Below are positions 52,164 through 53,893 of a DNA stretch of 64,000 bases, one piece after another. The DNA is taken from the NCBI GenBank assembly GCA_026390015.1, contig JAPLGS010000143.1, positions 1 through 64,000 on the forward strand, written 5' to 3'. The position numbers were made by a program, and so were the translations under genes. The stretch is from Chloroflexota bacterium. Its GTDB lineage: Bacteria > Chloroflexota > Anaerolineae > Anaerolineales > Villigracilaceae. The number at the start of each line of letters is the position of its first letter. Position 1 is the first letter of the stretch. The notes beneath the pieces were generated by a model. It did no database searches. It had not been told where the DNA came from and saw only the letters and a list, made by a program, of their open reading frames with translations.

Positions 52164-52231
52164 AGATAGTCTTATGGATTGAGTAAGATATATTGAATTG
52201 GACTTGTCTTGTCTAAAAATAAGGAGACAAA

Positions 52232-52738
52232 ATGAATCCCCGCATCTTTTTTCTGACCTTTGGCCTGGTCGCTGTTTTATTGGCAGCCTGCGCCCCGCAA
52301 GCGACTCAAGTTCCCGCGCCGCCTCAAGCGGCCACGCAAACTTCTGAAAGTGTCGCCCAGCCTCAAGTCACGAATGAATCGCCGCCAGTTGTTGCTGTAG
52401 CCACATCGCGCGGCCCAAATCTCGAAGCTACTGATCCATCCACAGTCAGTCTGGCATCGGGTCAATTGCAATTAGTGGAATTTTTCCGCTTTACGTGAAG
52501 TACCTGCCGCGCAATGGCGCCCATGGTTCATGGGCTTGAATCGGAATATTCTGGCAAGATCAAGTTTGCTTTTCTTGATGCCGACGATCCCAACACTGAC
52601 TCATTCCAGAGCGACCTTGGTTTTTATTCCCAGCCTGAGTTTTATCTGGTGAATGCGGACGGTAAGGTTTTGAAAAAGTTTATTGGTTATGTTTCCGAAG
52701 ACGATTTTAGAAATACTTTTGCGCAATACTTGCAATAA
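52232..52738 (+). CDS. Thioredoxin-like lipoprotein, candidate selenoprotein (in-frame TGA at codon 89)
   Basis: 168 residues if the TGA at 52496-52498 is read through as selenocysteine. Lipoprotein signal with lipobox LLAAC (Cys21), a Pro/Gln/Thr-rich linker, then a thioredoxin fold: QLVEFFRFT-[TGA]-STCRAMAP. The TGA falls exactly where the first Cys of the CxxC motif belongs, giving U-S-T-C. The same frame continues without interruption through FAFLDADDPN and QPEFYLVNADGKVLKKFIGY to TAA at 52736. AAGGAG precedes ATG. It would be an extracytoplasmic thiol/disulfide protein. A recent nonsense mutation of a Cys codon is the alternative. Confidence 0.75.
52496..52535 (+). promoter_or_regulatory. 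Candidate bacterial SECIS element (TGA plus hairpin)
   Basis: Downstream of the TGA the coding sequence forms a perfect 7-bp stem GCCCATG/CATGGGC (52519-52525 and 52529-52535) with a three-base loop GTT. The loop starts 28 bases after the TGA and begins with G, within the general bacterial SECIS rules as I remember them (apical loop about 16-37 bases away, G among the first two loop bases). Confidence 0.55.
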
Positions 52739-52798
52739 ATTAAATTACCCATCAAAGGATGGGAAATTTTTTTCTGCCTTCATTTATAATCACCGCCT

Positions 52799-53893
52799 AT
52801 GGATATTCTTATAAAAGTTTTGGTTTTCATCATTGGGCTTGTTGTAGTTATTCTGACGATCTTTTCGGCGTTGTCCACATTCGTGTTGACGCGCGCCGCG
52901 CGTAGTCAATTGAATCGCATCGTCTTTGGGATTATGCGCCGAATATTTGAATTCATCCTAAAGTTTTTTCATGACTACGAACAGCGCGATCAGATCATGG
53001 CTTATTATTCTCCCATCAGTTTGATTATGCTTGTGCCGGCCTGGTACGCACTCATCATGTCGGGATACGCCGCCATGTATTGGTCACTGGGTGTAGGGGA
53101 TTGGTTTGCGGATTTTCGATATAGCGGTTCATCGTTGTTGACGCTGGGATTCGCTACTTCAAATATTCCCATTGTGACCGTTCTGTCTTTTTCAGAAGCG
53201 TTGATCGGGTTGATTTTGGTTGCTTTGCTTATGGCCTATTTGCCGACTATGTATGCCGCATTTTCGCGGCGAGAGCAGGCCGTCAGTATGTTGGAAGTGC
53301 GCGCAGGCAATCCGCCTTCGGCTTTGGAAATGCTACTGCGTTTCAATCGCATTCATGGTTTGGATAAGCTCGGTGATTATTGGAAAACATGGGAAGCCTG
53401 GTTTGCAGATATTGAAGAAAGCCACACCACTTTGCCAGCGCTGGTTTTTTTCCGCTCCCCGCGTTCTGATAATTCATGGGTCACGGCCTCGGGCGCAATT
53501 TTGGATGCGGCAGCGATCACGCTCTCTGCAGTGGATATTCCCGCGGATGCTTCTGCGGCACTGAGCATTCGCGCGGGCTCTCTTGCCTTGCGGCGAATCA
53601 CGAATTATTTTGATATCCCATATCCCGAAGCGCCAAAATATCCAACAGACCCGATCAGCATTAAGCGCGAAGAATTTGATGAGCTGTTATTCAAATTGGA
53701 AAAAGCGGGCGTGTCGCTGAAAGCAGACCGTGAAAAAGCGTGGACAGATTTCGCAGGCTGGCGAGTCAACTATGACAGAGTCCTTTTGGTGTTGTGCACA
53801 CTTGTAATGGCTCCGCAAGCGCCATGGTCCAGTGACCGCGCGCCGAAATTCAAAATGCCACCGTTGTTCCTGAAGAAGAAACGCAAATCTTAA
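52799..53893 (+). CDS. Membrane protein with channel-like pore segment
   Basis: 364 residues. Membrane helices near 5-30, 70-98 and 130-152; between the second and third is RYSGSSLLTLGFATSN, which resembles the re-entrant pore loop of two-TM potassium-type channels (STxxTVGYGD), though the GYGD is GFAT. The large C-terminal half is soluble and starts at the end of the third helix. Could be a divergent ion channel; function uncertain. 60 bases after the thioredoxin gene on the same strand. Confidence 0.55.
   Translation: MDILIKVLVFIIGLVVVILTIFSALSTFVLTRAARSQLNRIVFGIMRRIFEFILKFFHDYEQRDQIMAYYSPISLIMLVPAWYALIMSGYAAMYWSLGVGDWFADFRYSGSSLLTLGFATSNIPIVTVLSFSEALIGLILVALLMAYLPTMYAAFSRREQAVSMLEVRAGNPPSALEMLLRFNRIHGLDKLGDYWKTWEAWFADIEESHTTLPALVFFRSPRSDNSWVTASGAILDAAAITLSAVDIPADASAALSIRAGSLALRRITNYFDIPYPEAPKYPTDPISIKREEFDELLFKLEKAGVSLKADREKAWTDFAGWRVNYDRVLLVLCTLVMAPQAPWSSDRAPKFKMPPLFLKKKRKS

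Follow-up and report, generated by a model that had tools for sequence, protein, structure and literature searches.

An in-frame TGA codon at 52496-52498 interrupts a thioredoxin-like gene on the forward strand of the DNA analysed here (64,000 bp, called the window below), and the question is whether this codon marks a broken gene or is read as selenocysteine (Sec). Translation of 52232-52738 confirmed what the initial annotation had stated, namely that the TGA is the single internal stop of the frame and coincides with the first Cys position of the thioredoxin CxxC motif. It is codon 89, in the context FFRFT-*-STCRAMAP, which on read-through becomes FFRFT-U-STCRAMAPMVHGLE. The features of the locus are as follows.

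52221..52227, + strand: Shine-Dalgarno-like AAGGAGA, read directly, 4 nt upstream of the ATG
52232..52738, + strand: candidate selenoprotein gene for a thioredoxin-like probable lipoprotein of 168 aa, stop codon TAA at 52736-52738
52232..52291, + strand: putative signal peptide with a lipobox-like LLAAC ending in Cys20 (52289-52291), from the alignment and general knowledge
52403..52735, + strand: thioredoxin domain, residues 58-168, from Pfam and the predicted fold
52496..52498, + strand: in-frame TGA, proposed Sec-89, from translation and the comparison of homologue codons
52496..52507, + strand: predicted active site U-S-T-C, from translation and alignment
52519..52535, + strand: SECIS-like hairpin with a 7-bp stem and loop GUU (52526-52528)
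52748..52773, + strand: terminator-like hairpin and T run, directly 3' of the gene

The terminator-like hairpin suggests that transcription ends at this point, and the aldehyde dehydrogenase gene upstream has the opposite orientation; the candidate gene therefore looks monocistronic. Further downstream, 52799-53893 (+) encodes a membrane-like protein of 364 aa, for which Pfam gave no match at E up to 0.1, which is adjacent to the gene in some relatives only. The ATG at 52514, which had been pointed out as a start that automatic annotation might choose, is indeed in frame with 52232-52738, and ordinary gene finders are likely to split the gene or to lose it. Counted over both strands, six TGAs of the window have a hairpin of the SECIS type in range, close to the number expected from a coarse shuffle (mean 4.9); the TGA at codon 89 is the sole case among them with at least 40 open codons before it and at least 30 after it.

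The read-through protein scored 41 bits with Pfam Thioredoxin (PF00085), whose cut-off is 23.5. AlphaFold predicted 103 residues with a pLDDT of at least 90, the ten-residue blocks from residue 61 onwards scoring 87-98 and the N-terminal part being of low confidence. The nearest solved folds were thioredoxins (Foldseek E 3.8e-08, phmmer 1.7e-08), which VIA-align superposed with Z 15.7 and rmsd 1.9 over 102 aligned residues. An alignment of the window protein with 38 of the 48 public loci showed C20, E83, C92, R93 and P135, among others, to be invariant in these 39 near homologues, with Cys or U at residue 89. We read LLAAC as a lipobox with Cys20, invariant in 39/39, as its last residue, which makes the product a probable lipoprotein. 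The Pfam match agrees with the earlier description of the protein as thioredoxin-like, and the conserved Cys20 would fit its description as a lipoprotein. We further take Glu83 to stand at the place of the buried Asp26 of E. coli thioredoxin and Pro135 to be the likely cis-proline; in thioredoxin terms, Sec89 would presumably stand where the thiolate attacks and Cys92 where the second thiol resolves.

The codon at residue 89 was compared over 186 homologue rows, which are partly redundant and include the out-of-frame G050 and an ordinary cytoplasmic thioredoxin of G037. It was TGA in 170 rows, TGC in 11, TGT in 4 and CTG in one (G050); neither TAA nor TAG was found in these 186 rows. At 44 homologue places in G000 and 60 relatives, TGA occurred 40 times, TGT once (G044) and TGC twice (in G057 and in the cytoplasmic thioredoxin of G037, which is unrelated), the remaining place being the out-of-frame one of G050. 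Among public genomes, with record titles mostly of Chloroflexi or Anaerolineales, all 48 of 48 loci had TGA. Class-wide, 85 of 396 genomes gave a match with E of at most 1e-12, and the places read had TGA in 39 of 51 cases (the other 12 Cys; a few repeats) and in 43 of 43. Among 400 genomes of the phylum, class members included, 22 matched, the one outside the class being the weak match of G450, which has no stop and was left unread at the codon. Seven of the 41 same-genus genomes were without a close homologue (G002, G006, G012, G013, G020, G024 and G169), yet the first six contain SelA. With the class taken from the record titles to be Anaerolineae, we infer from this distribution a family of probable selenothioredoxin lipoproteins that is spread over it. 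The initial annotation had proposed a search for Cys at residue 89 of homologues and had named other stops or frameshifts in relatives as evidence against Sec; the site proved to be TGA or Cys, other stops were absent, and a frameshift was present in one draft genome, G050. In that draft the reading frame of the homologue (L055) is shifted at the active site, and selA (G050:C11:46114-47192) is split into two overlapping pieces, which together suggest an assembly with indel errors. Locus L045 (G041:C719:7508-10392) is a tandem gene pair with TGA in both copies.

The hairpin at 52519-52535 (GCCCAUG-GUU-CAUGGGC) consists of seven perfect pairs. It starts at the 21st base past the TGA and its loop G is the 28th, leaving 27 nt between UGA and loop, which fits the earlier description of a 7-bp hairpin with a G-starting loop 28 bases past the TGA. 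The bacterial SECIS (bSECIS) model quoted in PMC13188914 has a stem of 4-16 bp, a loop of 3-9 nt located 16-37 nt after the UGA, an MFE of at most -7.5, and a G at the first or second base of the loop, with G or U as the usual next base; the hairpin, with an MFE of -11.3, lies within these limits. Compared with shuffled versions, the 21-nt hairpin was unusually stable (z -3.5, 0/200), and the 54-nt stretch past the TGA was not (z -0.38). Stability alone is therefore not convincing; it is the conservation that convinces.

For this comparison the 170 TGA rows were reduced to 138 distinct sequences by removing duplicates and sequences that contained N or were shorter than 57 nt. Counted in bases after the UGA, pairs 24-34, 25-33 and 26-32 were standard in 138/138, with 4, 4 and 3 types of standard pair, respectively. 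Pair 27-31 was standard in only 86/138, so that the apical loop is often one of five bases of the type xGUkx, and the loop GU was invariant and at a constant place in all 138. Paired cells numbered 895 of 966 (shuffle mean 791, maximum 806) and double-change cells 111 (mean 24, maximum 37); further pair types numbered 15, no excess over the shuffle maximum of 15 (mean 12). Slid hairpin controls reached at most 430 paired cells, the slide of -1 having 56 double-change cells. An unsupervised covariation scan ranked two of the stem pairs highest among all column pairs. In several of the compensatory changes (CCC..GGG, TCC..GGA, CCT..AGG) one side is synonymous and the other is not, which suggests that the hairpin is under selection as RNA in its own right. 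The TGA and the hairpin, for which the initial annotation had called for a comparison, are thus both kept in relatives, with covariation.

The same annotation had asked for the selenocysteine machinery in the genome from which the window derives (the host genome; 4.3 Mb, 177 contigs, 95% complete). All four components were present and scored above their curated cut-offs.

C135:89744-90811, host genome: selA, 454 bits
C51:162562-164445, host genome: selB, 360 bits, model positions 2-580 of 581
C38:81980-82912, host genome: selD, 356 bits, with an in-frame TGA of its own
C37:112424-112516, host genome: tRNA-Sec, 64.4 bits, ARAGORN anticodon UCA

We relied on the curated cut-offs since by bare E-value tRNA-Sec, SelB and SelD also find matches in control genomes; for selB and selD the cut-offs separate the controls, with 2 of 14 control genomes above the cut-off. 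In draft G055, tRNA-Sec, selD and selB lie together at G055:C30:12017-18132 and a second copy of each is found elsewhere, either by duplication or by contamination.

The form of the gene followed the presence of SelA in the genome. A strong SelA (a match better than 1e-25) was found in 37 of 39 and 68 of 71 genomes with the TGA form (105/110 pooled), as against 0 of 2 and 1 of 8 genomes with the Cys form (1/10 pooled), the one exception, G162, having a partial match (Fisher p 2e-9, from a hand tally uncorrected for relatedness). G050 and G037 were left out of this tally, and genomes with several copies (G344, G326, G041, G213, G230, G185, G303 and G368) were counted once. The five TGA-form genomes without a strong SelA (G034, G042, G106, G369 and G304) are drafts of 78-95% completeness. 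SelB above the cut-off was absent from seven Cys-form genomes (G294, G344, G326, G214, G408, G348 and G063) and present in G157, a TGA-form genome with the same genus label as G294.

Because the UGA is conserved, the hairpin covaries, the Sec machinery is present and SelA is associated with the form of the gene, we consider that the UGA at codon 89 of this thioredoxin-like lipoprotein is decoded as Sec, with a probability of about 0.95 as judged from sequence comparison. The codon would be read by tRNA-Sec delivered by SelB, bound to the hairpin downstream. The TGA is one base from TGC and from TGT, and a nonsense mutation or a wrong base could have produced it, leaving a dead gene or a normal one with Cys; the G050 relative, out of frame in the active-site region, fits such an origin. 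However, the TGA recurs at the same codon in many assemblies (the 48/48 and 43/43 loci above) and its hairpin covaries. In addition, past the TGA none of 31 same-genus genes (75 codons each) has a further in-frame stop, and their one-change codon pairs are synonymous in 10508 cases and non-synonymous in 3475 (75% synonymous, as against 21% for random changes), a sign of strong purifying selection. In our view the conservation of the TGA, the covariation and the purifying selection refute a pseudogene or sequencing error, whose probability is negligible. An open and conserved frame is expected under any reading, also if a changed code or simple read-through turned the TGA into Cys, Trp or some other ordinary residue without selenium. 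Yet TGA terminates 17 of the 47 stop-to-stop frames of at least 250 codons in the window, the Sec machinery and the TGA form occur together, and the residue replaced is the catalytic Cys. Moreover, the hairpin fits the bacterial SECIS model, and one or more of the five inner pairs are missing in 14 of 15 Cys rows as against 7 of 138 TGA sequences. Decoding as an ordinary residue is therefore very unlikely.

With the codon read as Sec, the product is most likely an extracytoplasmic selenol/thiol-disulfide oxidoreductase. The lipoprotein signal peptide would direct export and anchoring at Cys20, and a low-complexity linker of about 40 residues would hold the thioredoxin domain outside the cytoplasmic membrane. 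By analogy with thioredoxin chemistry, Sec89 would attack, Cys92 would resolve and Glu83 would help; most likely the protein would reduce or exchange disulfides, or oxidised groups akin to them, in extracytoplasmic proteins or small molecules, with Sec speeding the attack. Electrons may arrive via a membrane protein of the CcdA/DsbD type, of which the host genome has candidates above the cut-off in two places (C65:41006-41644 and C127:2987-3511); no tie between these and the selenoprotein gene was found. When the seven neighbours of the gene were sought beside its homologues, synteny was retained among close relatives only, and a conserved operon was rejected on that ground. None of the seven was a redox partner conserved at the homologue loci, and the functional assignment consequently relies on the fold and the motif. 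The two active-site positions are retained in the 115 leaves of the tree described below (U-x-x-C 98, C-x-x-C 12, U-x-x-U 5), as are E83, C92 and P135 throughout the 39 near homologues, a pattern that we take to be that of disulfide-exchange proteins. This speaks against a variant of the same explanation in which Sec is kept and the thioredoxin fold serves as a peroxidase, in metal(loid) binding or in sulfur transfer. In favour of such a variant, the neighbour check tied no substrate or partner to the gene, and peroxidase, metal-binding and sulfurtransferase names occur among the other selenoprotein families in PMC13188914. Provided that Sec decoding holds, we regard a role in disulfide chemistry as quite probable and one of the other roles as rather unlikely.

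The Cys forms differ in what they retain of the hairpin. Its inner pairs were all intact in G294 (five of five, L151), four of five were intact in G344 (L147) and G348 (L154), and the others had at most three. G294, with TGC at the site, is without a strong SelA and without SelB above the cut-off, and the same holds for G344 and G348. Despite the five intact inner pairs, the hairpin is not the minimum-energy structure of the 61-nt relic region of G294. By its pairing pattern it looks like a relic SECIS, left after Sec was replaced by Cys; SECIS remnants in Cys forms are reported for other families in PMC1794560. A quick tree of 115 leaves, many of its supports weak, needed nine changes at the first active-site position, and replacement of Sec by Cys therefore seems to have happened several times. 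The tree left out G050, G037, further loci from genomes that already had a leaf, most of the f52 loci L079-L088 and, owing to a shared name, two of the three G326 copies. The distant members of the family (30-35% identity) may include paralogues, in which case not every Cys form would be a replaced Sec.

In G264, G152, G337, G404 and G106 (L142-L146), TGA stands in place of each of the two Cys codons of the motif. These U-x-x-U genes have a single downstream hairpin, spaced as usual from the first TGA, and from the second UGA it is 17 nt to the five-base loop, inside the range of the bSECIS model. Four of the five genomes have a strong SelA, the one without being G106 (81% complete), and four have SelB above the cut-off, with fragments below it in G264. 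G303, which has the same genus label as G264, carries U-x-x-C, and the tree showed three changes at the second active-site position. On balance we favour a picture of class-wide, surface-anchored selenothioredoxins of the Anaerolineae, in which one SECIS would serve two UGAs that lie nine bases apart, yielding a U-x-x-U thioredoxin able to form a diselenide (five genomes, three lineages), and other lineages would have gone back to Cys with a relic SECIS. If this is true, the U-x-x-U, U-x-x-C and Cys forms make up a natural series from which the benefit of Sec in a thioredoxin active site could be measured. Together with the tracking of SelA and the relic SECIS, the mix of forms offers a system in which to study what makes lineages retain or lose Sec, and whether a single SECIS is enough for the decoding of two neighbouring UGAs.

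Sec-containing thioredoxins are already known: Table 1 of PMC13188914 has Trx (PF00085, UxxC) as an 'experimentally verified' entry. Compared with this table entry, rather than with a protein, the window family shares the thioredoxin domain and Sec as first residue of CxxC, and differs in being a probable exported lipoprotein with a linker and in having UxxU forms. The same source holds other thioredoxin-like UxxC selenoproteins (SaoT NF040730, HUIPC-motif NF047660, and PF13098 and cd02966 entries), which, judged by their names, share the fold and the motif; at E up to 0.1 the window protein matched neither NF040730 nor NF047660. It scored far under the cut-off of the NCBIfam thioredoxin equivalog TIGR01068 (38.2 of 96.8 bits) and of the DsbE model (32.1 of 123.15 bits), and no NCBIfam match listed for the six family proteins scanned was above its cut-off. 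No published description of the family by name was found in the open-licence literature searched, which included PMC13188914, PMC9312934, PMC1794560 and PMC12013277. Since the mechanism is shared, the model scores are distinct and no name was found in that literature, the novelty is at the level of the subfamily only. The earlier designation as a new candidate selenoprotein accordingly stands for the subfamily and not for the mechanism, which the entry in Table 1 of PMC13188914 already covers. A thioredoxin subfamily of the Anaerolineae, a mostly uncultured class, is added to the known selenoproteins, and it suggests that these bacteria carry out selenium-dependent redox reactions beyond the cytoplasm; source names of the homologue records include groundwater, lakes and sludge.

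A further relative is the DsbG-like Rcas_1661 family (NF041057, UxxC), also in Table 1 of PMC13188914. It resembles the window family as a thioredoxin-like (seleno)lipoprotein with UxxC and with TGA forms in the same class, and differs in its 247-position model, which the window protein did not match at E up to 0.1. Two weak matches among five homologues scanned prompted us to consider membership, which was rejected at 17.7 and 18.7 bits against the 190 bits of the cut-off. NF041057 is itself a second rich selenoprotein family of the class: class-wide, 21 of the 29 top-listed matches above the cut-off contain one in-frame TGA.
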